Virus record (IMG/VR): IMGVR_UViG_3300030110_001497
Coordinates: 1-31,571 of that record
Source of the DNA: a virus
Direction: 5' to 3' (one strand)
DNA: 31,571 nucleotides
Shown: positions 4,144 through 28,161 of the stretch, in pieces
How positions within the stretch are numbered: position 1 is the first letter of the stretch
Layout of the letters: the number at the start of each line of letters is the position of its first letter
The notes under the pieces: model-generated
The model's database searches: none
Told to the model about the DNA's origin: nothing
What the model saw: the letters and a program-made list of their open reading frames with translations, nothing else
Translations under genes and position numbers: made by a program

Positions 4144-4458
4144 TTATTCTCCTTCTTCTGTAGTTTGAGGTTTATCCTCGCCATATACTAATTCGTTTTC
4201 TACTAGGATTAAATACCTTCGTAAATCCCGAATATCGTCCAAAAGACCTTCGTCTCCTGTATACACATCTCCCGCCTTGAAAACATCCCAACCATGTTTC
4301 TCTGATTGATTTTCAATACGGTCGAATTTTCTCGCTAACATCATAAACGCACCTACACCTCCGCGCCGTTTCCACGAATCGCCATAAGATTCCTCAGCAC
4401 TTCTTAAAGTGTTTACGTCCTCTTGAGCAATATTTTTCATATTTTCCCACTTAGTCAT
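4144..4458 (-). CDS. Small conserved phage protein, possible nucleotide-modification-associated
   Basis: About 104 aa from the ATG at 4458, chosen because AAAGGAGAAAGTAG precedes it and because ATGACTAA couples it to the end of the thymidylate-synthase-like gene; an upstream in-frame ATG lies at 4482. It is all-helical in appearance, with two conserved-looking blocks: ESYGDSWKRRGGVGAFMMLA with ARKFDRIEN, and DDIRDLRRYLILVENEL. The pattern resembles DUF1599-type proteins ('nucleotide modification associated domain 1'), but I cannot confirm the match. Its position beside a TS homologue and a 5-hmdU-kinase-like gene supports a link to nucleotide metabolism. Function is inferred only. Confidence 0.5.
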   Translation of the reverse strand: MTKWENMKNIAQEDVNTLRSAEESYGDSWKRRGGVGAFMMLARKFDRIENQSEKHGWDVFKAGDVYTGDEGLLDDIRDLRRYLILVENELVYGEDKPQTTEEGE

Positions 4459-5485
4459 CTCTACTTTCTCCTTTATTTTCAAAATTTTCTTTTCGTTTCA
4501 ATAGCCATTCTTTACAAGCAACTCTCCAATCGGTAGCTACAATATACTCAACTTCAGCCAGTGCCTTATCGTAATCTTTTTGTTTATGAGCCCAATACGC
4601 ACACATCATAGGGTGACCAATACTCTTAAATGCAAAGTTATTCCACCCTTCAGAAACAGTTATGTTCCTGTTCTCAAAATCCATAAACTCATTTAACTCA
4701 GAATTAAAAGTATCTATGTCTGTAGTTATTAATGGAAAATATATATCTTCACTATCGTACATAGTTCTTTTAGTCTGCGGATAAAATGGATCTATAGTTA
4801 GATGTTTTAATCTATCCCAAAGTTCGTTCTGATAGACGTGAAAGCTATCACTTATTTGTCTATAATGTCCTATGTCTACTCCTATAGCTGATGCCATATA
4901 TTCCTGTAACATAGACATATGAACTGCGTTAGCCCCATAAGCTCCCCAAACCATGTCGTTAGATCGACAACACACAGTCATGTGTAATAAACCTTCTCTT
5001 ATCTTGAAATATATGTGAGTGTTACAAGGAACATCTTTACCTTTACGATCTAGGTCTCCTATAGCGTCCCACATCTGTAATACTGCTCGTCTATCGTCTG
5101 GGTTTCTTTTTAACATACGGATTATATCTTCTAGTTGGTCAAACAAGAAATAACTTCTCCATCTCCAACCATACGCTCCCCACAATGTTTCACCATCATC
5201 TGAAAAGTTCTCCATTGTCTTAACAAAATACTTAACTGTTTTTAAATCATTAGCTCCATTTAACATCCACAGTCCTTCTATAAAATGAAAAAACGGATTA
5301 CAGTCTCTCTCAGGTATCAAACATACTCTTTCCCAAGGTTTTTCGAATACGGTTGTTACAGGGCACAGGGCTTCGTAAGTTGTTCCGTTACGACTCTCTT
5401 GTGTTCTGTAATTAGTATGTCCTTTAAATAAATCAATGCCTTTAAGTAGAGCATCGTTTACGTTTCTTGCAGGTATTACATTCAT
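4451..5485 (-). CDS. Thymidylate-synthase-fold enzyme, candidate dUMP (hydroxy)methylase
   Basis: This 344-aa protein aligns by eye with thymidylate synthase: Glu70 in FHFIEGLWML (TS Glu58), paired Arg132-Arg133, catalytic Cys154 in VPCNTH, CCRSND (Arg174, Ser175, Asp177), GAYGAN with Asn186 (TS Asn177, which selects uracil over cytosine), and FHVY (His216, Tyr218; TS His207, Tyr209). It differs where TS is usually strict: the His after the catalytic Cys is Asn155, the Gln before RS is Cys173, GLPFN is replaced by a one-residue-longer GAYGAN, and the typical C-terminal closing segment is absent. It could be a plain TS or a dUMP hydroxymethylase; the 5-hmdU-linked gene just upstream favours the latter. 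The start overlaps that gene's stop (TAATG) after GAGGAAATA. Confidence 0.82.
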   Translation of the reverse strand: MNVIPARNVNDALLKGIDLFKGHTNYRTQESRNGTTYEALCPVTTVFEKPWERVCLIPERDCNPFFHFIEGLWMLNGANDLKTVKYFVKTMENFSDDGETLWGAYGWRWRSYFLFDQLEDIIRMLKRNPDDRRAVLQMWDAIGDLDRKGKDVPCNTHIYFKIREGLLHMTVCCRSNDMVWGAYGANAVHMSMLQEYMASAIGVDIGHYRQISDSFHVYQNELWDRLKHLTIDPFYPQTKRTMYDSEDIYFPLITTDIDTFNSELNEFMDFENRNITVSEGWNNFAFKSIGHPMMCAYWAHKQKDYDKALAEVEYIVATDWRVACKEWLLKRKENFENKGESRDD

Positions 5486-6369
5486 TATATTTCCTCTATT
5501 AATGGTAGTTCTGGATCATGTTTATAGATAGATCGAGTCCTTCCCTCTCCCTTAACTATCCTAGAATATTTATCAAACTCACAAAGACCGCCTTCTATTT
5601 CTCTCATTTCATAGACGCGATGTGAATCTTTAAACCATAAATCACGACTATCCACTGCTTGATATAAATCATTCATTTCTTTATTCCAGTCATGGCTTCT
5701 TTTACAAAAACCTAAATCACGACCAGTAAGTCTGTTGAGTCCTCTCATGGCTCCGGGACCAGCATTAGCCCAAGTCAATATATCATCTGCTTTGTCTAAT
5801 AATGAAGTCCATCGTAAATCTGTTACTACTTCATATGCCATGAATGGACCCATGTATGGATACTTTAAAATAATATCCCACGCTTTTTCTAAAGAACATT
5901 CCTTTTTAATTTCTTTTACGATATGTTTTCTATCTCTCCACATATGAGAGACACATTCAGCAACTCCTGTTACCTTGTTCATACGATTAGGAGTTTTAAT
6001 AATATATGCTCCTGTTATCCACTTAGGTTGTTTAAAAACTTCTGCAATAGCTTTTTTCCTATCCCAGTTCTCAAGTAGATCATGTTCTAATAAAGTTCTA
6101 CCTGTCTCTATTAAATTAAACCAACGAAATATTACAGTAGCCATAAATACTTCATCTTGATCTTTTAATGGCTCTCTGATGTGTTTAACAAACCACCGAG
6201 TAGTTCTGTCATCTTCACGAAAAACTTGACAAAACTTAAACTCTTGAAGAATAGGATCATCAGTCCATGGCGGAGACTTTTTCAGAAATTCTTTATTTAT
6301 TCTAATCCTTTCTCGTTCTTCCTGCCAATAAATATAACGATCCAGTTCTTCTGGAAGAAATTGAGTCAC
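5485..6369 (-). CDS. 5-hmdU DNA kinase helical-domain (aGPT-PPlase clade 2) family protein
   Basis: About 294 aa from a GTG at 6369, preferred over the GTG at 6390 because AAGGAAAAAGTA precedes it and it shares a base with the upstream stop (TAGTG). Diagnostic blocks are WTDDPILQEFKF, VFREDDRTTRW, TGAYII, GPFMAYEVVTDLR (helix-hairpin-helix-like), TWANAGPGAMRGL and GLCEFDKYSRIVKGEGRTR. I recognise these as the family Pfam calls 5-hmdU DNA kinase helical domain (earlier alpha-glutamyl/putrescinyl thymine pyrophosphorylase clade 2), tied to thymine hypermodification in phages. I see no P-loop, so this may be a partner or DNA-recognition subunit rather than the kinase itself. It is directly coupled to the TS-like gene. 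Confidence 0.78.
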   Translation of the reverse strand: MTQFLPEELDRYIYWQEERERIRINKEFLKKSPPWTDDPILQEFKFCQVFREDDRTTRWFVKHIREPLKDQDEVFMATVIFRWFNLIETGRTLLEHDLLENWDRKKAIAEVFKQPKWITGAYIIKTPNRMNKVTGVAECVSHMWRDRKHIVKEIKKECSLEKAWDIILKYPYMGPFMAYEVVTDLRWTSLLDKADDILTWANAGPGAMRGLNRLTGRDLGFCKRSHDWNKEMNDLYQAVDSRDLWFKDSHRVYEMREIEGGLCEFDKYSRIVKGEGRTRSIYKHDPELPLIEEI

Positions 6370-7214
6370 TACTTTTTCCTTAGTATCCACGCACAGTTGT
6401 TAGCCACCTCAGGATAAAATACCGCAGAAGCCATTCTTAAAAACTGTCTACCATAACGTTTTTCCATTATCTCAAACTGTTCTAAAGTAAACCCTACTGG
6501 ATTCTTTTGTTCTCTTACCGCTTTTCGTAATTTAGGTATCTGTATAAACGTTCCTGTAACTGCTTCTATGTGGAAGTTTCTTTCTAGTTCTTCTTTAAGT
6601 TCTTGAAAGCCCCACTCATACACATGATCCTCTGGTAGCTTATCGTTAGAACCATCATGGTTAGGAGTTGATACATAACCTAGAGCATTAGGTCTCATTA
6701 CCCTTGCTACATCATCTAGCCATGCAGGGACAAAGTGTCTTCCCATATGTTCAATAACTTCTGTAGACCAAAAGAAATCTACGCTTTCGTCTTCTAGATC
6801 GAACACAGGATTAACAGTTAAATCTTGTATTCTTATCTCACCATTAAAGTTCTTAAACCATGCAGAATCTTTTAGTTCTCCTCCTGCATTAGACCAGAAA
6901 GGGTTTTCCATAAGACAAGCGGGATCGATATCGTAACCAAAATAAGACCTAACTACATCTGATTTTTTGATAACATACGCTTTATATATGTTCCTTAGAG
7001 CCCAACACTCTCCGCAACCAACTTCAAATCCGTCTATTGGTCTGCCTAACTTCTTAGCTTCTTCTATCATTAAAGACGCTATCTTATCGAAACGACTCAT
7101 ATGACCTAATTCATCTGGTCTCCAATTAGCAGTAACCCCTGCTGTAGCAAGATCCATTCTAGTATTCTTGCTGTCGTTTTCATTCACGGTTAATTTCCTT
7201 CTTATTGATGACAT
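6369..7214 (-). CDS. Class I SAM-dependent methyltransferase
   Basis: This 281-aa protein has the Rossmann-type methyltransferase motifs: motif I FEVGCGE (about 63-69) for SAM binding, acidic loop GYDIDPA (93-99), DESVDFFWSTEVIEHM (142-157) and RVMRPNALGYVSTPN (171-185). It resembles the Methyltransf_11/25 group, which act on small molecules, sugars, proteins or nucleotides. There is no DPPY/NPPY or PCQ motif, so it is unlikely to be a standard DNA base methylase. It sits directly upstream of the hypermodification-like gene, and a role in tailoring a modified nucleotide is possible but unproven. The start follows GAGGAGAAATT and overlaps the upstream stop by 13 nt. Confidence 0.82.
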   Translation of the reverse strand: MSSIRRKLTVNENDSKNTRMDLATAGVTANWRPDELGHMSRFDKIASLMIEEAKKLGRPIDGFEVGCGECWALRNIYKAYVIKKSDVVRSYFGYDIDPACLMENPFWSNAGGELKDSAWFKNFNGEIRIQDLTVNPVFDLEDESVDFFWSTEVIEHMGRHFVPAWLDDVARVMRPNALGYVSTPNHDGSNDKLPEDHVYEWGFQELKEELERNFHIEAVTGTFIQIPKLRKAVREQKNPVGFTLEQFEIMEKRYGRQFLRMASAVFYPEVANNCAWILRKK

Positions 7215-7756
7215 AATTTCTCCTCATCTTCTATTGACATATAATAATCATCTATGGCTTGAGCTTCTTCTACCCACCACTCTGGTCTATCTCTACCCTT
7301 TTCCCACTTAGCGTAATGTTTTTCGTTTATAACATAAGCACGATAAGCATAAATTGGATCGTGTTTTCGTTTATATTGATCTGGCATAGCTTGTGCGACT
7401 GGTGTTTTTTCATCAGTGTATTTAATATTGTCTGGTTGTAAGAACAATGGTTCTTTTAACTTTGCTACGCTTGCATGAATTTTATCGTATCTGTGTGTGT
7501 ATTCATCACCTAGAGCGAGGAAGTGTTCGTATAACCATCTGTAATTTGCTGAACACTCTCTAGTCCATATAGTACAAGGGTGGTTTTTATACGCAGTTTT
7601 ATATAAACCTTGTGCGTCTGCCCAATCATCATCGTCTAGTTCTCTGTGTGCTGTGCACAACATCTGAGCTGTTTCTAATGGCATTTTTACTAGCATTTTA
7701 TCTGGTTGTGCTTGTGCACATTTAGTTGGACAATCATCAAAATAAAATATGTTCAT
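7202..7756 (-). CDS. Conserved phage protein, possibly DNA-repair related
   Basis: This 184-aa protein starts MNIFYFDDCPTKCAQAQPDK and contains VKMPLETAQMLCTAHREL, YKNHPCTIWTRE, NYRWLYEHFLALGDEYTHRY and AMPDQYKRKHDPIYAYRAY. I recognise this as a widespread phage family; I recall some members being labelled as pyrimidine-dimer-glycosylase-like, but I cannot verify that and the signature of T4 endonuclease V is not obvious. Trp, Tyr, His and Lys are abundant, which fits a nucleic-acid or nucleotide enzyme. It is the first gene of the polymerase operon, with a strong RBS (GAAAGGAGAATATT) and promoter P3 upstream. Family is likely; function is open. Confidence 0.6.
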   Translation of the reverse strand: MNIFYFDDCPTKCAQAQPDKMLVKMPLETAQMLCTAHRELDDDDWADAQGLYKTAYKNHPCTIWTRECSANYRWLYEHFLALGDEYTHRYDKIHASVAKLKEPLFLQPDNIKYTDEKTPVAQAMPDQYKRKHDPIYAYRAYVINEKHYAKWEKGRDRPEWWVEEAQAIDDYYMSIEDEEKLCHQ

Positions 7757-7827: not shown

Positions 7828-9324
7828 TTATAATTGATAGTAGCGTGTTGTTTTAGGCTCAATAAGATATAAATTTTCTTTTGCTCTGGTTATTGCTACA
7901 TAGAACACACGATTCTCATCGTCTGGATTCTCTTGGTAATTTTTGTAAACTCTGTTAGTTATGTCTGTTAACAACACAACGTTCTCACACTCTCCTCCTT
8001 TAGCGGCATGGATAGTAGATAAACGTATTCTCGGTTGCTTAGTTATCTTTTCTCCTCTACGAAGCATGGCTCTTATGTAGCTAACTTCTTTTGGGCTCAA
8101 CAGATTAAATACATCATACCAGTTACCTTGAGGTAACTCAGGAAAATAATGCTCTAGTTCTTTTCTTTTTATCCCTGAAGATGGGTTAAGTACATCTAGT
8201 TTCTTTATGTTCTTTATTTTGATGTACTTTAAAATATTTATACAGTCAAGAACAGATACATTTCTACCTCTGTTAAGTCTTTCCCAATTTATTACAGCTC
8301 TTACTTTCTTCTCTGCGATACTAGACCTTCCTTTTACTTCAAAAAACCATCCTTCGTTTCTACAGTATTCATCTACTTCTTCTAATAGATAATTAGTCCT
8401 AGCTAAAACTAGCCACTCTCCTTTTTCCATGTTAATTAACTCTATAGACGGCTCCCATCGAACAACTCCCTCCTCTTTTCTAGGAGTCCATTCTTTATGT
8501 ATTCTGGATCGAACTTGTCTGATACAAGAATTGGCTACGTCATGCACCGATGAAGGAACACGATAAGATTGTTTCAAGATCATTGCTTCCTTAGAATTAG
8601 CTATTAAGTAATCAACATCAGCTCCTGCCCATTTATATATCGCTTGATCATCATCACCTGCAACATAAATACGATCGGCTCTCTCTGCTAGTTTTCTAAC
8701 CACTGACCACTGTAAAGGGGACAAGTCTTGGGCTTCGTCTACAAACATAACATCTAACTTAGGTATATCTCCTTTCTCTACAAACATCTGTAACATATCT
8801 GTGTAGTCAACTAACAATCTATCTTGCTTAAACAGTCGTAATCCTCTAGCGAAACGTTCTAGTTCAAACCAACCTACCGCATCATCAACCTCGTGCCACT
8901 GTTCTTGTAACGACACGTCACGCATACGAGATAGGTTTTCTATAAACGCTAAACGATCATCGTGAGTCATAGCAAATATATGACCATCATCAGAAGTTGT
9001 TTTTCCTGTTAATCGAATATTAAGTTTCTCGTTTAAGTCTATGATATTAGAACGATCTATTACGCTTTCTCGAGTCAATCCTAGTTGTCTAAACGCTAAC
9101 GAATGTAGAGTTCTAAAGTAAGGCAGTTCCTTATCCTTTACGCTAAAACGTTGTATAGCTCTTTCCTTGCCTTCCTTTACCGCTTTCTTAGTAAAGGTAA
9201 AGAATCCTATACGTTCTGGTCTAGTTCCTTTTTCCATCTCATCTTCGATGAGTCCTAACAAGGTACTGGTCTTTCCCGTTCCCGGAGGTCCAAGAATTAC
9301 CTGAGTATGAGCAGGTAAACTCAC
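7828..9324 (-). CDS. UvrD/PcrA-like superfamily 1 DNA helicase
   Basis: This 498-aa ATP-dependent helicase shows the SF1A motif series: Walker A GPPGTGKT (12-19), Ia region TFTKKA, motif II VDEAQD (195-200), motif III GDDDQAIYKWAG (223-234), motif IV region QSYRVP (252-257), motif V STIHAAKGGE (436-445) and motif VI YVAITRAKENL (475-485). It is shorter than cellular UvrD (about 720 aa) with reduced 1B/2B insertions, as in many phage versions. It probably unwinds DNA in replication or recombination. The start is GTG after CAGGAG and overlaps the AlkB-like gene stop by 4 nt (GTGA). It is the last gene of the 13132-7828 unit. Confidence 0.93.
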   Translation of the reverse strand: MSLPAHTQVILGPPGTGKTSTLLGLIEDEMEKGTRPERIGFFTFTKKAVKEGKERAIQRFSVKDKELPYFRTLHSLAFRQLGLTRESVIDRSNIIDLNEKLNIRLTGKTTSDDGHIFAMTHDDRLAFIENLSRMRDVSLQEQWHEVDDAVGWFELERFARGLRLFKQDRLLVDYTDMLQMFVEKGDIPKLDVMFVDEAQDLSPLQWSVVRKLAERADRIYVAGDDDQAIYKWAGADVDYLIANSKEAMILKQSYRVPSSVHDVANSCIRQVRSRIHKEWTPRKEEGVVRWEPSIELINMEKGEWLVLARTNYLLEEVDEYCRNEGWFFEVKGRSSIAEKKVRAVINWERLNRGRNVSVLDCINILKYIKIKNIKKLDVLNPSSGIKRKELEHYFPELPQGNWYDVFNLLSPKEVSYIRAMLRRGEKITKQPRIRLSTIHAAKGGECENVVLLTDITNRVYKNYQENPDDENRVFYVAITRAKENLYLIEPKTTRYYQL

Positions 9325-9902
9325 AAACCACTCCTGAATGTTAAACTAATTCGTCTTTTACTACCAAATAAAGGCGGTATAGAATGAGTAGCTTTCATTT
9401 GAGAATGTCCGTCAAACATATAAACATCACCTTCCTCTACTAAAAACCGTGTAGTTTCAGGATCTCCTTTATTATCTAAATTTATTTGACTTGTATTTGT
9501 GTGTGATTTTATAGGTTTATCGTAATTATTCCACTCAAGAATCCTAGTGCCTCCGAAGGATATACCGAGAACTACGTCTTGTAGAGTAGGAATAGTGTCA
9601 GAGTGATGAGGAATACTGTCATCTCCTGTTTCATATAAACCACATAAACAAAAAGTAAATTCGATAGGTTTATTCATTATTTCTGAAGCCCACTTTTCAG
9701 CTTTAGATTTAATTAGTTCCATGTCCTCCGTCCATGGTTCAGGTTTATATAACTTTCCAGCATAGTTAAACTCAGAAGTTCCATAACCTTTTGTAGGTCT
9801 GCCATAAACTGCTTTCCCATCGAAATGACGAATAGTAGGTCTATCCCAATGCTTTATGTTAGGTTGCATATATTTAAATACATTTTTAGCAAATACTTTC
9901 AT
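9321..9902 (-). CDS. AlkB-like Fe(II)/2-oxoglutarate dioxygenase
   Basis: This 193-aa protein carries the complete AlkB-type active site: HxD (His100, Asp102 in IPHHSD), distal His173 in MKATHSIP, and the 2-oxoglutarate-binding Arg pair Arg184/Arg190 in RRISLTFR. Such enzymes oxidise alkylated bases such as 1-methyladenine and 3-methylcytosine in DNA or RNA; phage copies may repair the viral genome, though a role on modified phage bases cannot be excluded. It is coupled on both sides by ATGA/GTGA overlaps with the prim-pol and helicase genes. It resembles the short ALKBH2-like group in size and core layout. Confidence 0.9.
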   Translation of the reverse strand: MKVFAKNVFKYMQPNIKHWDRPTIRHFDGKAVYGRPTKGYGTSEFNYAGKLYKPEPWTEDMELIKSKAEKWASEIMNKPIEFTFCLCGLYETGDDSIPHHSDTIPTLQDVVLGISFGGTRILEWNNYDKPIKSHTNTSQINLDNKGDPETTRFLVEEGDVYMFDGHSQMKATHSIPPLFGSKRRISLTFRSGL

Positions 9903-15404: not shown

Positions 15405-16190
15405 TTATCTCCTCGGTCTAAAACCTGATTGGAATATTTGAGTTAGTGTATCGTTTTGTGCGTTTAAAGGCAACCTAGATAATCCTTTATTCATCAAATT
15501 ATCTTGACCAACAGTAAGTCTACCCCCTCTGTTAGCGTAAATCATTCCCGGAGCTGATCCAAATTCTTCAGGAGACATAGGTCTAGTGTATTCCCGCATT
15601 TCTTGTGAATTAGATTCAAGAATACTTTTTGGATCGTATTGTTCTCCAAGTGCTTGTCCTGTATAAACGTTTCTTGTCCCATCGTCTACGATCGGTGGAG
15701 TATAAACAGGTTGTTCTGGAACATAACCATAATCAGCAGGATCCACAGGTATTCCGTATCCTTCTGTGTCTCCAAATTGAGCTATTTGACCGTCTGTTCC
15801 TAAACTTAAATCAGGTTCTTCAGAAATAACAGTAGGAGAAGTCATGGTTGTACCTCCTGAATAAGGAGCCGCATCTTCATAAGCTCCATAAAATCCCGGA
15901 CGTTTACCAGTGTTAGAAACAACAGCTTCATTCGAATCGTAGCCGTATTTCTCTATCATTTTATTTGATAATGATCCTAATCCTTTTTCTGCTTCAGTTG
16001 CCTGAGAATTTTTAAAATCAGCTACATCTGCCTCATACTGATCAGTAGCGTTTCTCGCCGCTTCATTAGCATCTGTTCTTAAATTTATCGCTTCTATAAC
16101 AGGAGCTTCTATTTCAGGAATAGCTATACCTCCTCTAATACGATTTCGACCTTTAGGTTCTAAAACATCTTTGTAAAAATTTCTAGCCAT
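15405..16190 (-). CDS. Putative virion protein, Gly/Pro/Tyr-rich
   Basis: This 261-aa protein has a helical N-terminal third (NLRTDANEAARNATDQYEAD), a disordered-looking middle rich in Gly, Pro, Asp and Tyr, and a C-terminal segment MIYANRGGRLTVGQDNLMNK that repeats the GGRL-type motif seen in other proteins of this operon. No enzyme motif is visible. It is coupled to the 1151-aa gene (TGATG overlap), so its product is probably made in proportion to it. I infer a structural or chaperone role from position only. Confidence 0.5.
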   Translation of the reverse strand: MARNFYKDVLEPKGRNRIRGGIAIPEIEAPVIEAINLRTDANEAARNATDQYEADVADFKNSQATEAEKGLGSLSNKMIEKYGYDSNEAVVSNTGKRPGFYGAYEDAAPYSGGTTMTSPTVISEEPDLSLGTDGQIAQFGDTEGYGIPVDPADYGYVPEQPVYTPPIVDDGTRNVYTGQALGEQYDPKSILESNSQEMREYTRPMSPEEFGSAPGMIYANRGGRLTVGQDNLMNKGLSRLPLNAQNDTLTQIFQSGFRPRR

Positions 16191-19100
16191 CAGTTTATAA
16201 TCCCTTGTAATGTATTCATATTATTCTCTAAGATAGTGTATGGAGAAGTTACTGCATCTAATAATACACTTTTTCTTTCTGGAGTTTTTTGAACCTTATC
16301 TTCAGTATCATAATATTGAAGTTCATTAGCTAAATCTTCAGAAGCAACGGTGTCATGTGTTTTTAAAAATCGTAAAAAGTTTTGTAATTTAACCCTACCC
16401 TCAGCATAAGCCATAGTTCTTTCAAATAACTCATGTTTTCCATCAGGAGTGCCTAATAACATTTCTCCAATAAATTTACGAGAATTATCATTAACTCGAC
16501 TACTTAAAGCGGTTAATCTTCTACCTGTTTGTGTTAATGGTGGAACTAATAAACGCATTAACATTCTTGCACCTGAGATAGGGGACTGTATTCCTTCCCC
16601 CGTTAATAAATCTTGTGCTAATCCGGGGGTAGAAGCTGGTCCAACTTCTCGTTGTACCATTTCATTTAAAATTCTAAGATTTTTAACATATTCTTTACCT
16701 TCTTTTCCTAACAAAGGTTCAATAAAGTTTTCGAAAGTTAAAGGAGAACCAATTACGTCATCTCCTGCAGGTCCAAACCCTTCTTTAAGAAAATTATCTA
16801 ACTTAGCACCTGACTGTGCAAATATATTTCCTGTTCCTTGTTTTCCTTCCAGTATTTCATCTCTAATATAGCGTTTAGTTATTTGAGATACTTGTTTTTG
16901 TAACAGTGGATCACGTTTAATAATATTTAACAAATATTTTTGATCTTCTAATATTTCTCCCGATCTTTTTGTGGTACTTCCTTTACTTAATAAACTTTCA
17001 ATAATATTGCTAAATTTAAAATTAGGATCAGTCGCATCGCCAAAACGAGCTTTTAAAGTTGCTATTCTATCGTCTCTTTTTTGTATTTCATCTATAACGT
17101 CTCTTTGAAACTTTCTAGGAGTAAAGTTAAATGTTTGTTTATAGCCGTCTTTTCCAAAAATAGTTTTTAAAGTTCCTTCATGATTTTTCATAAATTCACG
17201 ATAACTTTTAGCTATTTCAAATGGAGTAGTTTTTCCGGGACCCTCAGTAATTACATTTCTTTTTATGTATTCTGCTATGCCTTTTTGTATTTCTAATACT
17301 TCATCAGAACCTTCTTTCTTTAATACTTCCATTAAATTAGACACTCTAGTGTTCACAGTAGTTCCGGGAGTACTTGTTCCTAATATGTAATCAGCTACTT
17401 TTTCAGGAGTTTCTATTTTATCCCTTAATATAGATGTTATTGCTTCTGCATCAGCTAATCGTATCGCTTCTTTTTGCGCTGACCAAGCGTCTCTAATTTC
17501 ATAACCGTATTTAGTTTCTGCCATATATTCTTTACGAGTTTTTGGAGTTACTTTAAGACCTAGAGCTTTCATCTCTACTTCTGCGCCTTCTTCTAATAAC
17601 TTATACATTTGTTGTTCTAACCCGCGCTCTAAATCCCTAGCTAATTTATTTGCTGTTGGATTAGGGGAGCTACTAGCAAAACTATTTAAAGCTGTTCTAG
17701 CGTCATTAAGTTCTTGCATAGTAAAGTTTATTTTATCTTTACCTACGAATCCTTTACCTGTTGTAGGATCTATTCCTCTTAATCTTTTTAAAGTTGCTCC
17801 ACCGTTAACGTTTTCAAAAAGCATTCTAACGGCTTCATCAGTTTGTTCCATTTTAAAAAGTTTATTAGCTTCACCTTTTCTAGCAGTAGCCCACGCTGTT
17901 GCAGGTTTTCTAGTAAATCCTGCCCCTGTCGTGTTAGAATAACGCTCTAATCCGATAGCATCATTAAATGCTTTATTATAAGGAGCTACAAAATCTTGTT
18001 TAATTTGAGTTAAACGTTTCATAGTTCTTTCAAATAAAGGAGTCGATATTTTTTCGTCAGGCACATCTCTTAATAAAGCAAGTCCAGCATCAGCTACGTC
18101 ATCTCCACCTCTTATATTATTTATTACGTTATCTATCATTGAAAAGGCTTCGTCTTCAAACCCTTCAATATCTTTTCTAATTAATGCGTCTATTTCCCTA
18201 GCAACCGTTGCTCCCGTTGCATCAGTAGCGATCGATGGTCCAATTTTATCACTTAACGTTCTAACAAAACGGTTAATAACTTCTTGATTACCTTTTAACA
18301 CTTCATTGTAAAGTGTTTTTAATTTAGCGTCATCAGCATATTTTAAAAACAATAACTCTAGGTCAGCCGCTTCCATCATTCCAGTGGCTGAAGCAAGGGT
18401 TGGATTGTATTTACCAATATCTACTTTAAATCTACTACTTAAATCGTCAATAGCAGCATTTATTGTTCCCAAAGAAGTTTCGGTTCCGTAAAGAACACCA
18501 GTATCTGCTACGGATTCTCCAGCCTCACTAGCTCGTTTAGCTTTTAAAAGCTCTTGTATTTTATTAAAAAATTCAGGAGGCACATCTTTTCCTGTAATTA
18601 ACCGCCATGCTTTAGGAATAATATTAGCAGCAGTAGTTACTCCAGCAGTAGATAAAAGAGCCATTGCTCCTATCATCGCTGATTCATCTAGGGCTTCCAT
18701 TAATCCGATATCGTTATACCCTAGTTTATTCCCTGTTGCTAAACGTAAAAAATCTCCTCCTGCCGCTCCCACTGCAGATAAAGTAGACAATCCTAATATT
18801 TGCGCTCCTCGTTTAACCACACCTGTAGGTGCAAGAGTGTAAAAAGGCTCTAATTTTTTTGCTCCAAAAATTGTAAGTCCAAGATCTGCTGCTAGAGAAG
18901 GAGTTTCTTGAATTAAGGTTGAATAAATATCTTGAGCAGTAAGTTTAGGAGTGTTTAATAATTTAAAATCATCCTCCCCTTCTGGTTTAAATGCTACTCC
19001 TAAATCAGGTTCATTTGGATTTATATAACGATATTCGCCTTTAAGATTATTTCTTTCTCCCCATTTTTTCCACTGTTCTTTAGTCATATTACGTGGATTA

Positions 19101-19645
19101 AAAGCAAGTTCTCGAGAACCTTGTTCACTAAACGGTATGTAATTATCTGGATCGAAACCACGTGCTGCAACTCGCATCTGTTGTTCTAAATTAAAAGGTT
19201 TCATCCCCTCTGCCGCTAGTATCTCCTCTGGTGCTGATCCTTGCATTGCAATTTCATACATGTTTCTTTCTTCAGGAGACATCATTTCTAACTTGGAGGC
19301 TTCTTCTTGTTTATATATTTCAGCCTTCTTTAAAGCATCGGAATAAGCAGGATAACGTTCTTCTAGATCGAACTCAACAGGAGGACGGTTATACGGAGCA
19401 ACTCTTTCTTTAAAATTAACCGTATTGCGTATTACTTCTATTTGTTCCGGAGAGTATATAGAGTTAGCTAAATTTAACACATCTGGTTGAGTATATACAG
19501 AAACTAAACGTAGTTCTTGTGGGGACAACACCTCGCCATAAGTAACATTAGGATTGTCTTTTAATGTTTGTTTGCCAAGTTCTTCTGCTCTTTGGTTTCT
19601 TAACTTTACAAAAGAATCGTATTGTTGTGTGGTTACGTCTGCCAT
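16190..19645 (-). CDS. Very large internal virion / DNA-ejection-type protein
   Basis: This is the longest gene in the window (1151 aa). Most of the chain is charged, helical sequence; a more hydrophobic stretch lies at about 245-350, including GAQILGLSTLSAVGAAGGDF and SAMIGAMALLSTAGVTTAAN, which could cross or insert into a membrane. Large helical proteins with a hydrophobic patch, encoded between smaller virion genes, are typical of podovirus internal core/ejection proteins (compare T7 gp15/gp16 in role, not in sequence). No lysozyme or transglycosylase motif is evident by eye. It lies in an unbroken run of virion genes. Function is inferred from size, composition and position. Confidence 0.55.
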   Translation of the reverse strand: MADVTTQQYDSFVKLRNQRAEELGKQTLKDNPNVTYGEVLSPQELRLVSVYTQPDVLNLANSIYSPEQIEVIRNTVNFKERVAPYNRPPVEFDLEERYPAYSDALKKAEIYKQEEASKLEMMSPEERNMYEIAMQGSAPEEILAAEGMKPFNLEQQMRVAARGFDPDNYIPFSEQGSRELAFNPRNMTKEQWKKWGERNNLKGEYRYINPNEPDLGVAFKPEGEDDFKLLNTPKLTAQDIYSTLIQETPSLAADLGLTIFGAKKLEPFYTLAPTGVVKRGAQILGLSTLSAVGAAGGDFLRLATGNKLGYNDIGLMEALDESAMIGAMALLSTAGVTTAANIIPKAWRLITGKDVPPEFFNKIQELLKAKRASEAGESVADTGVLYGTETSLGTINAAIDDLSSRFKVDIGKYNPTLASATGMMEAADLELLFLKYADDAKLKTLYNEVLKGNQEVINRFVRTLSDKIGPSIATDATGATVAREIDALIRKDIEGFEDEAFSMIDNVINNIRGGDDVADAGLALLRDVPDEKISTPLFERTMKRLTQIKQDFVAPYNKAFNDAIGLERYSNTTGAGFTRKPATAWATARKGEANKLFKMEQTDEAVRMLFENVNGGATLKRLRGIDPTTGKGFVGKDKINFTMQELNDARTALNSFASSSPNPTANKLARDLERGLEQQMYKLLEEGAEVEMKALGLKVTPKTRKEYMAETKYGYEIRDAWSAQKEAIRLADAEAITSILRDKIETPEKVADYILGTSTPGTTVNTRVSNLMEVLKKEGSDEVLEIQKGIAEYIKRNVITEGPGKTTPFEIAKSYREFMKNHEGTLKTIFGKDGYKQTFNFTPRKFQRDVIDEIQKRDDRIATLKARFGDATDPNFKFSNIIESLLSKGSTTKRSGEILEDQKYLLNIIKRDPLLQKQVSQITKRYIRDEILEGKQGTGNIFAQSGAKLDNFLKEGFGPAGDDVIGSPLTFENFIEPLLGKEGKEYVKNLRILNEMVQREVGPASTPGLAQDLLTGEGIQSPISGARMLMRLLVPPLTQTGRRLTALSSRVNDNSRKFIGEMLLGTPDGKHELFERTMAYAEGRVKLQNFLRFLKTHDTVASEDLANELQYYDTEDKVQKTPERKSVLLDAVTSPYTILENNMNTLQGIIN

Positions 19646-23388: not shown

Positions 23389-24495
23389 CTAACTTCCTTG
23401 CTTTATGTTGATAAAAGACGAGCTTCCACCATTTACTGTTACGTTGTTTACCTTACCTTCTTGCTCTATACGGATGTTATAAGAGCCGTCTTTTGATATT
23501 TTCATCTCTAATTTATCTTCTATCTGTCGTATAAACTTGACTTCAGCATCAGTTACAAAGGTACTTATTTGTGTGTCCTTGTCATAACCAACCGCTGTCC
23601 CTCGAACACCGTCCGCGGACAACGCTCTGTCAGCTTTAGATAACTCGTCAACCTCTTGAATTACATCTAATAAATCTTCAAGGAAGTTACCTGCGAGGTA
23701 ATCTATATCAAGTTCTGTATATTCTAAATCATCTTGTTCTAGCTCATCTTGGTCTAGTTCATCAAACTCTAAGAAATCAACATCTAATAAGTTATCTGCA
23801 ACGGCGGTATCTTCATCAGACTGTTCTTGTATAGTTTGTGGAGGATTAACAATTAGCATATTGTCAATCATATCAAGAGTTAAATCTAAGATAACAGAAG
23901 GAGTAGGAGAAGTTTCGAAGTTATATACTGTAGTAGCCTCGTAAGGTTTATTAAGAATAACCTGACCAAGAGCCGTGTTTACTTCTATCTCGCCACTTGC
24001 TTCACCGTTCTCGTCTGGTAAAAGTATCACAAGTGTTTCTCCTGTCTCTTTTACTGTGAGAGTAAAGTCAGTTCCACGAATCCCAATCGTAGCTGAGTTC
24101 GTACGGATACTGATGTTTTCTTTTGGTATTCGCGGTTTTTTACTAGATATAAACCTTCCCGTTCCTTTTACGAAGTTCAAAGCCATACTAGACTTACTGG
24201 GATTCGGATCAAATACGAACTTATCTATAGTTACATTACTATGTTCTGTAAGACGTATAGTAGTTTCATCACGGAAAGTAACTCCCATACGACCATTAGC
24301 AGTCTCGAGTTTATCCATTGAGTTAAGAGAAAAGTCTATAGCACTTTCGTATACTTTGTCTCTTACTATTCTAGTGTTCCCGTTTAACTCAGTTATGTTT
24401 CCTATATCTTCAGCAAGAAGTGCTTGTGCCCTGATCATTCTGCTGGATACAGAAAGTACCATTATTACCGTCAGAAACAACACGCAACCAATCAT
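23389..24495 (-). CDS. Secreted FecR-domain protein
   Basis: About 368 aa from the ATG at 24495; an in-frame ATG at 24585 adds 30 residues, and 24462 is also possible. I chose 24495 because it begins an ideal signal peptide (MIGCVLFLTVIMVLSV..MIRAQA, cleavage after AQA), although no strong RBS precedes it. The mature part has a FecR-like fold signature: ETANGRMGVTFRDETTIRLT, SMALNFVKGTGRFI and ISIRTNSATIGIRGTDFTL. A very acidic low-complexity linker follows (FDELDQDELEQDDLEYTELD), then a second beta-rich segment. FecR domains occur in periplasmic sensors and in large surface proteins. With no FecI-type sigma factor nearby, a cell-surface or periplasmic partner of the curli-like genes seems likelier. 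Confidence 0.75.
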   Translation of the reverse strand: MIGCVLFLTVIMVLSVSSRMIRAQALLAEDIGNITELNGNTRIVRDKVYESAIDFSLNSMDKLETANGRMGVTFRDETTIRLTEHSNVTIDKFVFDPNPSKSSMALNFVKGTGRFISSKKPRIPKENISIRTNSATIGIRGTDFTLTVKETGETLVILLPDENGEASGEIEVNTALGQVILNKPYEATTVYNFETSPTPSVILDLTLDMIDNMLIVNPPQTIQEQSDEDTAVADNLLDVDFLEFDELDQDELEQDDLEYTELDIDYLAGNFLEDLLDVIQEVDELSKADRALSADGVRGTAVGYDKDTQISTFVTDAEVKFIRQIEDKLEMKISKDGSYNIRIEQEGKVNNVTVNGGSSSFINIKQGS

Positions 24496-25147
24496 TATCT
24501 TGCGTAGATTGTTGGTCAATATCGAAAGTTCTCGAGTCACCATCATGTTCAATTTTGAAATAAGCTCCTGCATAACCGTCTCCATTGTAATCTACTGCGT
24601 TACTATCCCCATCAAGATCGATATAGTTTGTAGCTGAGTCTACATCTAAATCAATGTGAACAGTATTGCTTGAACCTTGAACTATGGTGTCTATATCTGC
24701 ACCACTAGATAAAGAATTAGTAGCTAAGTCTAGTGTCATGGTGTTGGTGCTTCCATCCACGTTTACATTTACATTTGCGTTATCTGCTGAATTAGCGTTT
24801 CCCGGATCAACTTGAATCGTGTATGAGTTAGTATCACCATCAAAGTCAAAAAGACCAGTAAATGAGTCTGCGTTTATATCACCTAACATCTTGTTATTAT
24901 TACCTATTTGATTCACATCTAACGTCATTGTTGCACCGTCAAGATCGAAGTTAGTCATAGAACCATGAGCAGAGTTTAATCCTCCTATAATGTTTCCACT
25001 ACCTAACTGTTCTAAATCTATATTCGCGGTTGCTCCTACCTGATCTACATAAATCTCGTTATCATCAGAATAAGACAAACTATATGCAAACAAAAACCAA
25101 AGCATTACAGTACCATATACGATTATTTTGTTATAATTATTATTCAT
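24410..25147 (-). CDS. Secreted curlin-repeat-like Asp/Asn-rich protein
   Basis: This 245-aa protein has an N-terminal signal peptide (about 1-26, IIVYGTVMLWFLFAYSLSYS). The mature chain is almost free of Lys/Arg and rich in Asp, Asn, Gly, Ser and Thr. It contains curlin-type QxGxxN units (QLGSGN, QIGNNN, and a looser QVGATAN) and repeating Thr/Asp/Leu strands such as GATMTLDVNQIGNNN and TNTMTLDLATN. It also has DLDGDSNAVDYNGDG, which resembles Asp-rich calcium loops, and ends with two cysteines (FCIQ..TSTSC). It starts 8 nt inside the end of the CsgG-like gene after a GGGAAT RBS. It is the probable CsgG substrate. The repeats are degenerate, so assembly into amyloid is inference. Confidence 0.65.
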   Translation of the reverse strand: MNNNYNKIIVYGTVMLWFLFAYSLSYSDDNEIYVDQVGATANIDLEQLGSGNIIGGLNSAHGSMTNFDLDGATMTLDVNQIGNNNKMLGDINADSFTGLFDFDGDTNSYTIQVDPGNANSADNANVNVNVDGSTNTMTLDLATNSLSSGADIDTIVQGSSNTVHIDLDVDSATNYIDLDGDSNAVDYNGDGYAGAYFKIEHDGDSRTFDIDQQSTQDNDWLRVVSDGNNGTFCIQQNDQGTSTSC

Positions 25148-25946
25148 ATTCCCAGTATCCCTTTTGTATACCTTGTTTTATTATTTCAAGCACTCCTTCT
25201 TCTATCGCTTTTTGTAAGGCAATCGATGTACTTTCGTTTTCAGCTACTCCTCCTTCTACTTCGATAAGTTTAGTCCCTTCATCCACAAACCTAAATATAT
25301 CTTGCGATAGTCCTACAGATAAAATGTTTTTAGAAATTAAAACTTCAAGTAACACTTCACCTGTTGATACAGATACTAACCTTAAACTAATCGTTATCAG
25401 ATCTTCTCTGTACTCTTTACTAGAGCCGATGCCAAGGTAACGAGCACCTGCTCCTCCAGATTTGACATTAGTATCATAACTCAAAACTCCGCCCTGCACT
25501 AAAAGACCAGCAAAAAGTAAAGGTTTTACTTTGCTTTCTTCATCAAAAGATTCACGTGTACTTCGTATTATTTGTCTTTCTTTTGTAAGTGACTCAAGCC
25601 CTACCCTTTCTGCAACTTGGAAGAAATGACCGTTAGATGCATGCTTTAACGCGCGTATTAAAAACGCTTCTGGTGCTTGTGTAATAGCTGTACTAAATAA
25701 TGCAAACTGTCCATTACTTTTGCGCTGACCTGTGTAATCTTGAAAACTGTTAGCATATATAGCTATTACTGGTTTTCTTTTTGCAGGAGAGATATTTTTA
25801 AGTTCTTCTGACTGTAAACCAACAATAGAAGAACTTTGTATTACGATATTAGGAATACCGCCACCTTCTAACAAATTCTTAGATGCGCAACTAGAAAGTA
25901 AAGTCGCCAATAGGCACAGTAATATTGGTCGTTCCACCTTTTTCAT
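25140..25946 (-). CDS. csgG: CsgG-like curli secretion channel lipoprotein
   Basis: About 268 aa from the ATG at 25946 (a TTG-started frame extends to 25991). The start gives a classic lipoprotein signal, MKKVERPILLCLLATLLSSC, with lipobox LSSC and Cys20. The body follows E. coli CsgG (277 aa): VIAIYANSFQDYTGQRKS, STAITQAPEAFLIRAL, ERVGLESLTKERQIIRSTRE, GGVLSYDTNVKSGGAGARYL, ISLRLVSVSTGEVL and ILSVGLSQDIFRFVD. CsgG forms a nonameric outer-membrane pore that exports curli subunits. It overlaps the CsgF-like gene by 56 nt and lacks its own RBS, so translation is coupled. Identity as a CsgG-family protein is very secure; its use by the phage is unknown. Confidence 0.93.
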   Translation of the reverse strand: MKKVERPILLCLLATLLSSCASKNLLEGGGIPNIVIQSSSIVGLQSEELKNISPAKRKPVIAIYANSFQDYTGQRKSNGQFALFSTAITQAPEAFLIRALKHASNGHFFQVAERVGLESLTKERQIIRSTRESFDEESKVKPLLFAGLLVQGGVLSYDTNVKSGGAGARYLGIGSSKEYREDLITISLRLVSVSTGEVLLEVLISKNILSVGLSQDIFRFVDEGTKLIEVEGGVAENESTSIALQKAIEEGVLEIIKQGIQKGYWEYE

Positions 25947-26367
25947 CAATAATTGTAAGCGTAATAGTTTCTGCTTCAACAATATACTCAATCGTATTTC
26001 CCTCTAGTTCTAGTTTTCCTGATTCTTGTGGAGTCTCACCAAATAACTGTTCTACCATTTGTCTAGACAGTTGTGCGTAGATACGAGATTCTAAGTTTCT
26101 AATAAATCTTGCAAGTGTTGTGTTATCTGCTTCTCTTGCAAGTTCATCTTGATATGCTTCTATTTCGTCTTTTACTGCCTGTTTTCTCGTGGATTCTTGA
26201 TTTTCAATCGTTAAGTAATGAGAAGAAGTATTAATTCCCGAAAAGCTAGGACTTTTAAATTTGTATAATAATTCGTCTGCATTACTGTTAATACTAAATA
26301 ATATTAGCAAAACAGCTATATGCCAATAAATTATAAGAAAAAATGTTAAACTACTTTTCATTCTCAT
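25891..26367 (-). CDS. csgF: CsgF-like curli assembly protein
   Basis: The protein has 158 aa. A signal peptide (about 1-30, ending SINSNA) is followed directly by DELLYKFKSPSFSG, which matches the start of mature CsgF (the segment of CsgF that plugs into the CsgG pore). The helical NLESRIYAQLSRQMVEQLFG and C-terminal beta part GNTIEYIVEAETITLTIID and GGTTNITVPIGDF also follow CsgF order. In E. coli CsgF lies at the outer surface, binds CsgG and links nucleation to secretion. It precedes csgG as in bacterial curli operons. ATG 26367 or 26361 are both possible; it overlaps the upstream gene by about 17 nt. Confidence 0.88.
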   Translation of the reverse strand: MRMKSSLTFFLIIYWHIAVLLILFSINSNADELLYKFKSPSFSGINTSSHYLTIENQESTRKQAVKDEIEAYQDELAREADNTTLARFIRNLESRIYAQLSRQMVEQLFGETPQESGKLELEGNTIEYIVEAETITLTIIDEKGGTTNITVPIGDFTF

Positions 26368-26608
26368 CTTTTAATTTATTTTCCTCTTTTAATTCTAACA
26401 CTGTATTTACTTTTTGTTGTAATCTTATCATATCTTGATCTAACAAGCGTAACTGATCTGTGAGTCTAATAATAGTAACTTTCATTTCCTGTACAGCCGG
26501 ATCAATTTTACTATTAATTGTTTGCCAGACAAAATAAACAAAATAACCTAATCCAACTACCATTACTACTGGAAAACCAAACTCTGATATAAGAGCAACA
26601 ATATCCAT
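26351..26608 (-). CDS. Small membrane protein with coiled coil (paralogue of 26774-27070)
   Basis: This 85-aa protein has one N-terminal membrane segment (FGFPVVMVVGLGYFVYFVWQ, about 10-29) and a long helix (IIRLTDQLRLLDQDMIRLQQ) ending in a charged tail. It resembles the 26774-27070 product: LISEFGFPV versus LIAELGLPV, a central YF(V/I)-F motif, (M/I)IR(L/I), and a final V-L-L block. Such one-TM proteins near holin and endolysin genes are holin- or spanin-like candidates, but nothing proves that. It directly precedes the CsgF-like gene with overlapping ends. Confidence 0.5.
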   Translation of the reverse strand: MDIVALISEFGFPVVMVVGLGYFVYFVWQTINSKIDPAVQEMKVTIIRLTDQLRLLDQDMIRLQQKVNTVLELKEENKLKDENEK

Positions 26609-26790
26609 TACTTAAACTTCTTTTGTATATATTTTATCCCTGCATATATTGATAAACCATAAATTGCAAAGAGGCTAAGAGAACCAAATACAATAAAATA
26701 ATCTGATGGGTATAGGTATATAAGACCAAATAATCCGTCAACTACTGCTTCTGCGTCACCTATCGGTGCTAAACTAATCTCGTCTTGCAT
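26608..26790 (-). CDS. 60-aa single-TM protein
   Basis: The protein has a short acidic N-terminus (MQDEISLAPIGDAEAVVDGL), a membrane stretch around 31-52 (YFIVFGSLSLFAIYGLSIYA) and a basic C-terminus (KYIQKKFK), which favours an N-out/C-in orientation. It sits between the two paralogous TM genes, overlapping the upstream one by 17 nt, with GGAAAAATAG before the ATG. Membrane role in lysis or in the neighbouring secretion island is possible. No family recognised. Confidence 0.45.
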   Translation of the reverse strand: MQDEISLAPIGDAEAVVDGLFGLIYLYPSDYFIVFGSLSLFAIYGLSIYAGIKYIQKKFK

Positions 26791-27070
26791 CTATTTTTCC
26801 ATCTTCTACAAAGTTTTCTGCTCTAGCTATTCGCTCTAAATCAGGAGATAGTCCTAGAGCACTGCTTACGCTAGTGTCTATTCTAATTATATCATTATTC
26901 ATGGTTGCTGCTCTGGTAATGAGCATTTTAGATATTGATTGAACAGTTTGTATTTCGCTTACCAATCCATCCATCAACTGTTTCATAACGAGGAAAATAA
27001 AGTAAGCCATAACAAGACCACCTGCTACAGGCAAACCAAGTTCAGCTATTAATGTAAAACCCTGTTCCAT
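26774..27070 (-). CDS. Conserved small phage membrane protein
   Basis: This 98-aa protein has one TM segment (about 12-30, LPVAGGLVMAYFIFLVMKQL) and a helical C-terminal part with RAATMNNDIIRIDTSVSSAL, ending FVEDGKIDARRD. I recall near-identical architecture in marine cyanophage and other marine phage proteins of unknown function. It lies two genes downstream of the holin and overlaps the preceding gene by 22 nt. A membrane or lysis-timing role is plausible. Its duplicate lies at 26351-26608. Confidence 0.55.
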   Translation of the reverse strand: MEQGFTLIAELGLPVAGGLVMAYFIFLVMKQLMDGLVSEIQTVQSISKMLITRAATMNNDIIRIDTSVSSALGLSPDLERIARAENFVEDGKIDARRD

Positions 27071-27249
27071 TGCATTTCAGCTACATCAACATTAAAATCT
27101 TTCGCATCGAGAACCATATCTAGCATTCCGACAACAATGCATCCATAAGCCGCTGCTTTAATCTCAGCCTCATCAAAACTAGAAGCAACAATAGTTGGAC
27201 CTTCGTAATGTGTATCCTTATGAGTAAACTCTGTTATATAAACTTTCAT
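27049..27249 (-). CDS. 66-aa hypothetical protein
   Basis: A small soluble-looking protein (MKVYITEFTHKDTHYEGPTI, then SSFDEAEIKAAAYGCIVVGM) with alternating beta strands and one helix; it resembles other tiny phage alpha/beta proteins, but I do not recognise it. The ATG overlaps the holin stop by 4 nt (ATGA) and its end overlaps the next membrane gene. Function unknown; position places it in the lysis region. Confidence 0.45.
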   Translation of the reverse strand: MKVYITEFTHKDTHYEGPTIVASSFDEAEIKAAAYGCIVVGMLDMVLDAKDFNVDVAEMQWNRVLH

Positions 27250-27728
27250 TCGTCTTTATCTTTTGAATTACTGGCTCCGAAATAAAAGCTAATTACAGCA
27301 CTTGCAAGACCGCCAAGGTAGCCAAGGACTAAGTTAATCAATGCTTCACTGTTCTGCTCTGGAGGCTGGAGCGTGACTAAGAAAATATATCCCATAAAGC
27401 CACCAACTACTGTTATCCCCATAATTCTAGAAGTCCAGTCTTTAGAAAACTTTCCTCTTGCATCTTTTATGTCTTGAGTTTGTAAAGCGTACAGATCAAC
27501 TTCTAGTTCTTTCATCTTAACTTCGAAGTCTGCGTCTATCTTTTTAAGTTTTGCTAATTCCTCTGGGGTTGCGGCTTGTACTGCTTGTTCTATCTTTTTA
27601 GGAGTAGGTTCACACCCTAATGCTTCTGCAACCATGTTAGCCGCCATGTTGCCCATTGGACCCCCTAACGCTGTGCCGATTGTAGGAGCTACCGCACCTA
27701 TTATGTTTTTAACAAATTTAAACTTCAT
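27246..27728 (-). CDS. Holin of the GTA 3-TM type
   Basis: About 160 aa from the ATG at 27728 (MKFKFVKNII), chosen for its GGAGAAATAAT RBS. It shows an N-terminal Ala/Gly-rich segment (GAVAPTIGTALGGPMGNMAA), a conserved KKIDADFEVKMKELEVDLYA helix with ARGKFSKDWTSRIMG, then two membrane spans (ITVVGGFMGYIFLVTL and INLVLGYLGGLASAVISFYF) ending FGASNSKDKDE. This order matches the 'holin of 3TMs, for gene-transfer release' family. It should permeabilise the inner membrane at lysis, letting the GH24 endolysin at 29452-29916 reach the cell wall. Confidence 0.82.
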   Translation of the reverse strand: MKFKFVKNIIGAVAPTIGTALGGPMGNMAANMVAEALGCEPTPKKIEQAVQAATPEELAKLKKIDADFEVKMKELEVDLYALQTQDIKDARGKFSKDWTSRIMGITVVGGFMGYIFLVTLQPPEQNSEALINLVLGYLGGLASAVISFYFGASNSKDKDE

Positions 27729-27729
27729 A

Positions 27730-28161
27730 TTATTTCTCCACTGTTGAAGGATCAAACTTACCTAGTTCTATTAACTTCTCTCTATTAATTATGTGTTCTG
27801 CTTCTATATCATCTTTAGACTGACCAAAATAAGCTACAGCTAGATGATTTTCTATCATAGCTTCATTTATATCTACATTATCTACTACTACAGAAGCTAA
27901 CACTCTACCAAATTTTCCTCTGGAATCAGATAGTTTAGTTCTTAAAACTACAGTATCTCCATTATCGACAGCTTCTTTTAAATAAGCAGAAGCCATTTTA
28001 CCCCTAACTTTTTCATCTTTATCTCTTGTTCTAGATTCTGGAGTATCAATACCATATAACCTTACTCTTGAACTGTATTTGATGTCAAAACCTAAATCTA
28101 TTAAAGCATCTATTGTATCACCATCTACAACTCTGGTTACTTTACATTTATATTCATACAT
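27730..28161 (-). CDS. Staphylococcal-nuclease-like (SNase/TNase) protein
   Basis: About 143 aa from the ATG at 28161; a GTG at 28173 also opens the frame, but 28161 has GGTGGAAGTGCTA upstream and shares a base with the preceding stop (TAATG). SNase-fold motifs are present: RVVDGDTIDALIDLGF (10-25), RVRLYGIDTPES with Arg34 and Glu42, and RGKFGRVLA with Arg86, matching S. aureus nuclease Arg35, Glu43 and Arg87. The active site is therefore intact. It likely cleaves DNA or RNA. No signal peptide is visible, so it should act in the cytoplasm or after lysis; host DNA degradation is one option. Confidence 0.88.
   Translation of the reverse strand: MYEYKCKVTRVVDGDTIDALIDLGFDIKYSSRVRLYGIDTPESRTRDKDEKVRGKMASAYLKEAVDNGDTVVLRTKLSDSRGKFGRVLASVVVDNVDINEAMIENHLAVAYFGQSKDDIEAEHIINREKLIELGKFDPSTVEK

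Follow-up and report, generated by a model that had tools for sequence, protein, structure and literature searches.

A curli-type gene cassette without a recognised csgE near the lysis genes of a phage related to HTVC023P

The stretch of DNA analysed here (31,571 nucleotides; hereafter 'the window') comes from the IMG/VR virus record IMGVR_UViG_3300030110_001497, which is 32,656 bases in length. On its minus strand, 176 nt downstream of a gene for a holin-like protein with C-terminal transmembrane (TM) segments (27246..27755; phrog_1544), lies a cassette that begins with genes for small TM proteins. These are TM98 (26774..27070; 98 amino acids, with one N-terminal TM helix and a polar C-terminal region; phrog_18771, E = 1.5e-22), TM60 (26608..26790; a variable open reading frame (ORF) for a 60-amino-acid TM protein between the two other TM genes) and TM85 (26351..26608; a second member of the TM98 family by alignment and by its match to phrog_18771, E = 7.7e-25). 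They are followed by genes for a CsgF homologue (25891..26367; 158 amino acids; PF10614, E = 1.4e-18), a CsgG homologue, the predicted outer-membrane pore lipoprotein (25140..25946; PF03783, E = 1.3e-47), a curlin-like protein (CUR) that is the candidate exported subunit (24410..25147; 245 amino acids, with QxGxxN motifs) and a FecR-domain protein (23389..24495, in an ORF that opens at 24585; PF04773, E = 5.6e-11). An earlier note on this DNA had described the last four as overlapping ORFs; all were found on the minus strand at the coordinates it gave, and the CsgF (PF10614), CsgG (PF03783) and FecR (PF04773) assignments were far above the Pfam cut-offs. The note had overlooked the small TM genes of the cassette just upstream (26351–27070).

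The CsgF homologue has a hydrophobic N terminus (signal peptide), matches PF10614 over residues 19–152 and aligns weakly with the solved CsgF (E = 0.11). Residues 64–282 of the CsgG homologue match structures of Escherichia coli CsgG (E = 1.5e-41). Its ORF opens at a TTG at 25991; the start is probably the ATG at 25946, giving a lipoprotein signal that ends in the lipobox LSSC, and a lipobox is present in 51 of 53 family members. HfaB, the CsgG-type pore protein of Caulobacter holdfast anchoring, gave a weak match (E = 2.2e-6) far under the HfaB cut-off, and no holdfast genes were recognised in the window. Both the CsgG-family lipoprotein pore and the CsgF partner of type VIII secretion (curli) are thus present. 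The lack of CsgE that the earlier note reported was borne out by PF10627, which had no match in the window record and found none in six larger csg contigs and two isolate phage genomes; CsgE is also reported absent in the published descriptions of phage modules to which we compare the cassette below. One 130-amino-acid gene, on contig L062, was considered as a possible CsgE and rejected because PF10627 gives no support.

The earlier note had called the 245-amino-acid protein a curlin-repeat-like substrate. A direct match did not materialise, as the protein has no PF07012 match of its own in Pfam; homology, repeats and predicted fold do point that way. The Melnitz homologue, named 'curlin associated repeat protein', matches PF07012 above the cut-off (E = 8.6e-6), and a further homologue is annotated as CsgB in HTVC008M (31% identity over 96%). 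A matrix built only from the repeats of bacterial curlins in csg operons scored 20.5 bits on DDNEIYVDQVGATANIDLEQLGSGN of this protein, compared with 14.3 bits at the 99th percentile of 112 control ORFs, a score that about 0.1% of shuffles (about 1 in 1,000) reached. Conversely, a profile of the phage family finds QxGxxN-repeat ORFs beside csgFG in 4 of the 5 bacterial operons searched (E-values between 6.7e-6 and 0.009, the search space being small), one of which (L144, 6142–7425) overlaps other frames and may be no gene. Alignment of the family with one bacterial curlin using hhalign gave 4.5e-5 and a probability of 69%. An AlphaFold2 model (pLDDT 80, pTM 0.75) resembles BFVD models of 'Curlin associated' phage proteins (E = 2.5e-5, TM scores of 0.65–0.71) and had no significant match in the PDB, solved CsgA included. 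Only a few canonical repeats are present, and no CsgA-type N-terminal targeting segment was recognised by eye. Taking sequence and modelled fold together, we classify the protein as curlin-like. The end of its gene, which encodes a conserved pair of C-terminal Cys residues, shares nucleotides 24410–24495 in a different reading frame with the sequence for the predicted FecR signal peptide; in HTVC008M the curlin and FecR genes do not overlap. HTVC008M also has a second curlin (L054:8471–9796), of a kind not seen in the window, in which a PA14 domain and curlin repeats occur together, a combination that hints at an adhesive fibre able to bind sugars.

Translation of the FecR gene most likely starts at Met31 (24495), because this position aligns with the starts of shorter homologues and yields a hydrophobic signal-like segment ending in AQA; a signal peptide is therefore most likely, by eye and not by signal-peptide prediction. 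PF04773 is the sole significant match to a real family in all 12 homologues scanned, none of which has a recognisable anti-sigma region, and no sigma factor partner was recognised. The hallmarks of a FecR anti-sigma regulator, a cytoplasmic anti-sigma region before the TM helix and an ECF sigma partner, were thus not recognised. Bacterial matches to the family profile share the FecR domain only, often within very long open frames. A model of the protein (pLDDT 68) matches the fold of the periplasmic signalling domain of PupR, and NCBIfam gives a match under the cut-off to the Leptospira surface adhesin Lsa33 (E = 4.4e-6). Among 41 homologues, 34 have their best curlin-matrix match in the last 60 residues, compared with 4.5 in shuffles; the C-terminal match of the window protein by itself has P = 0.0065, and hhalign of the curlin and FecR profiles at the FecR C terminus gives a probability of 8%. 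The resemblance is absent in myophage versions. We treat this weakly curlin-like tail as a lead. With the likely signal peptide, the lack of an anti-sigma region, the weak curlin-like C terminus and the adhesin match, the sequence of this protein probably fits a secreted partner better than an iron regulator.

PMC9599517 describes one or two histidine kinases as invariably standing in front of the curli module of phages. The genes that we find in this position and number encode proteins of 85–116 amino acids with one N-terminal hydrophobic helix (phrog_18771), which have no kinase match in Pfam and lack the HisKA and HATPase domains of a histidine kinase; TM98 itself has no kinase or other Pfam match. 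Judged by position and number, the published 'histidine kinase' is almost certainly this one-TM-helix protein without a kinase domain. Nearly all csg loci have a TM98-family gene immediately before csgF, and TM60 homologues occur at 19 loci, that of the window among them. Relatives of TM98 were found in no phage record without csg genes out of the 50,697 searched, and on this basis we rejected the idea that the TM proteins are ordinary, widespread holins. They are not strictly csg parts either: of 133 IMG/VR TM loci with room downstream, 128 have CsgF/G and 5 lack csg. A search of 289 alphaproteobacterial genomes with the TM profile gave marginal partial matches only.

The order of one or two small TM proteins, CsgF, CsgG, curlin and FecR is fixed in about 100 viral contigs. 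We compared 132 sequences (viral loci, a few loci from metagenome-assembled genomes (MAGs), three phage stretches without csg, and the window); TM-CsgF-CsgG-curlin-FecR is found in 62 and TM-TM-CsgF-CsgG-curlin-FecR in 37, counts that refer to loci and not to independent phages, as related contigs are not independent of each other and some give two overlapping loci. Contig ends account for most of the shorter patterns; the others are bacterial operons. A scan of IMG/VR yielded at least 583 confirmed relatives among the matches listed. E-values from our local searches are relative to small databases. Of the 77 loci long enough to hold it, 30 also have a CHASE2-adenylate cyclase gene, which the window cassette lacks. 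Where computable, dN/dS is about 0.03–0.19 for TM98, TM85, CsgF, CsgG and curlin, the upper value coming from CsgG in the least diverged pair (with L003); compared with L071, dN is 0.05–0.12 and dS is near or above 1. These sequence comparisons indicate purifying selection on all five genes. In the FecR gene, dN is low and dS is saturated. Among the loci from MAGs, L059, in a Flavobacteriaceae MAG, bears the same phage-type cassette, and L061, which encodes TerL, spanins, an endolysin and the csg cassette, is a phage-like contig filed under the 'Candidatus Pelagibacter sp.' MAG MED605. Owing to misfiling of this type, searches of MAGs could wrongly credit SAR11 with curli.

The cassette was described in the earlier note as lying right after holin and endolysin genes. 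It is indeed close to lysis genes, and the holin-like gene adjoins the cassette in many loci; the endolysin gene (phage lysozyme; 29452..29916, minus strand; PF00959, E = 6.1e-9) is about 2.4 kb away. No spanin pair was recognised in the window. In L071, the CsgG of which is 82% identical to that of the window, the order is holin-like, TM98, TM60, TM85, CsgF, CsgG, curlin, FecR, Rz, Rz1 and endolysin; Rz and Rz1 match the spanin families phrog_739 and phrog_812, and the last gene matches an endolysin family. L061 has the same layout with the cyclase added. The five TM loci without csg are of two types, one represented by L228 and one by L214 and three contigs resembling it, and CsgG was not found anywhere on these five contigs, which may be fragments. 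L228 encodes a holin-like protein and two TM proteins followed, after 239 nt, by Rz, Rz1, endolysin and TerL; its TM pair shares 81–86% identity with that of L071, and its TerL 89% with the L061 TerL. As L228 is without the cassette at the place where L071 and L061 have it, these sequences indicate gain or loss of the entire cassette at once between the TM genes and the spanins. More broadly, 36 of 54 loci with enough flanking sequence have lysis-type genes no more than 6 kb away on that strand, and in 16 the core cassette stands alone, with no lysis gene recognised nearby.

Replication and tail genes, which with a similar gene order were our criterion for an HTVC023P type, were compared for the window phage. 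Its DNA polymerase (PolA) is 54% identical to that of 023Pt_psg01 and 47% identical to that of HTVC023P, a helicase is shared with 023Pt_psg01, and the tail protein is 35–38% identical to its best relatives. The 1,151-amino-acid virion protein (16190–19645) has no match in Pfam, among the 50,697 phage records or in nine related csg contigs. On these sequence relationships, the record is probably a fragment of a marine podophage that is a more distant relative of the HTVC023P-type phages; its host is presumably SAR11 or another marine bacterium. The earlier note had raised bacterial origin of the neighbouring genes through misassembly. We rejected a chimera, which is unlikely on sequence grounds because separate contigs cover both sides of the cassette: L002 (CsgG 95% identical) runs from a tail gene through curlin, and L051 runs from CsgG through FecR into the same downstream genes as in the window.

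Phage curli cassettes are of a kind already published from ocean phages, and the window is a new instance, contrary to the novelty that the earlier note implied. PMC7029224 (2020) described csgF and csgG with unknown neighbours in pelagimyophages. PMC9599517 (2022) reported CsgF, CsgG, CsgA/B and FecR in HTVC023P-type pelagipodophages and in pelagimyophages, sometimes with a second curlin and an adenylate cyclase, and detected curli proteins of phages at each of the 65 ocean virome stations that it examined. In GenBank, curlin-type proteins next to csgG are already annotated for the pelagimyophage HTVC008M and the methylophage Melnitz. The HTVC023P-type modules share with the window the CsgF, CsgG, CsgA/B-like and FecR order, one or two small genes at the front and, as described there, the lack of CsgE, CsgC and CsgD, whereas the window has no second curlin or cyclase and its preceding small genes have no kinase domain. 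HTVC008M and Melnitz have the TM-TM-CsgF-CsgG-curlin-FecR order, but have in addition another curlin gene (in HTVC008M for a protein with a PA14 domain) and one for an adenylate cyclase, and no lysis genes were recognised around their curli clusters; their CsgG proteins are 46% (HTVC008M) and 41% (Melnitz) identical to that of the window. Bacterial curli operons (E. coli type and alphaproteobacterial) also have CsgG, CsgF and curlin repeats, but their curlins contain more QxGxxN repeats, E. coli has CsgE, and the stretches around five csgFG pairs that we inspected contain no FecR or small TM gene. What we add, and did not find in the passages of PMC7029224, PMC9004378 and PMC9599517 on these genes, is that the 'kinase' is almost certainly a small membrane protein, that a role as secreted partner is more probable for the 'iron regulator', and that the cassette, with its empty sites, is optional cargo of the lysis region in related phages.

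We think it probable that the cassette specifies a CsgE-less phage form of type VIII (curli) export, a mobile block in or beside the lysis region that would place an amyloid-type protein on the surface late in infection. The central proposal of the earlier note, that the phage has a curli-type export island close to its lysis genes, lacking CsgE and including both a curlin-like substrate and a FecR partner, is supported by our analysis. All four proteins would be exported by the host Sec system at a late stage of infection; CsgG would form a pore in the outer membrane with CsgF as its outward partner, and the curlin-like protein would pass through it to form a beta-solenoid, amyloid-type surface layer. 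PMC7029224 notes that CsgE stimulates secretion and is not essential. The FecR-domain protein would also be exported, acting as an anchor, nucleator or adhesive partner and not as an anti-sigma regulator, and the small TM proteins would be lysis-region genes that travelled with the cassette. Such a layer might alter the infected cell or its debris through aggregation, by shielding from other phages or by keeping progeny near new hosts; sibling capture was proposed in PMC7029224. Against this reading stands the report in PMC9004378 that Melnitz, with csgGF and curlin-type genes, showed no clumping in cytograms or TEM. The missing CsgE, the few canonical repeats of the curlin, its lack of a recognised targeting segment and of a significant fold match to CsgA, the weak FecR–curlin resemblance and the 16 loci without a recognised lysis gene also count against it.

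A more elaborate version, which we consider unlikely, is a lysis-timed, self-contained amyloid device in which a CsgE-less secretion system is joined by FecR as an exported, curlin-tailed nucleator or anchor (CsgB-like), and the small TM proteins are a dedicated inner-membrane component coupling fibre export to the holin and spanin programme.

It is quite unlikely that CsgG and CsgF instead open the outer membrane at lysis without any fibre function, in the manner of a pinholin or secretin, as PMC9004378 (2022) proposed for Melnitz csgGF. The position in or beside the lysis region and the adjoining small TM proteins speak for such a pore, but every contig of sufficient length retains the curlin and FecR genes, which are under constraint; relatives that carry the cassette have spanins and an endolysin as well, and related phages have the lysis cassette without csg. 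Two suggestions of the earlier note fare poorly for the same reasons: piercing of the outer membrane in place of spanins, given that close relatives bear both the cassette and an Rz/Rz1 pair, and a bare pore for egress or uptake, given the invariable retention of the constrained curlin and FecR genes. We saw no phage cassette of csgFG alone on any contig with room for more.

A regulatory circuit, in which FecR, the small TM 'histidine kinase' and the adenylate cyclase control curli expression (from PMC9599517), seems improbable: FecR domains are signalling domains in PupR-type proteins and 30 of the 77 loci with room have the CHASE2-cyclase, yet the TM protein has 85–116 amino acids and no kinase match, the FecR protein has no recognisable anti-sigma region or sigma factor partner, and the window has no cyclase. 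Most improbable is a reading put forward in PMC7029224 and PMC9599517, in which an ungated CsgG admits larger nutrients, cofactors or iron chelates to the periplasm and FecR senses iron. It accords with the missing CsgE gate but leaves the constrained curlin unexplained; no transport gene was recognised among the proteins scanned, and the FecR protein is without an anti-sigma part and most likely carries a signal peptide. Under the curli-type export that we favour, infection may give abundant marine bacteria a new surface, as the SAR11 hosts of the published curli phages are described as being without curli.

Elsewhere in the window, a thymidylate-synthase-like gene (PF00303) adjoins genes for a 5-hmdU DNA kinase helical-domain protein (PF18723, E = 1.2e-45) and a methyltransferase (4451–7214). 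By analogy with the published TS + aG/PT-PPlase1 pair, which it resembles, this is a probable thymine hypermodification cluster. The replication region also encodes a pyrimidine-dimer glycosylase-like protein (7202–7756; PF03013) and a 2OG-Fe(II) oxygenase (9321–9902; PF13532).
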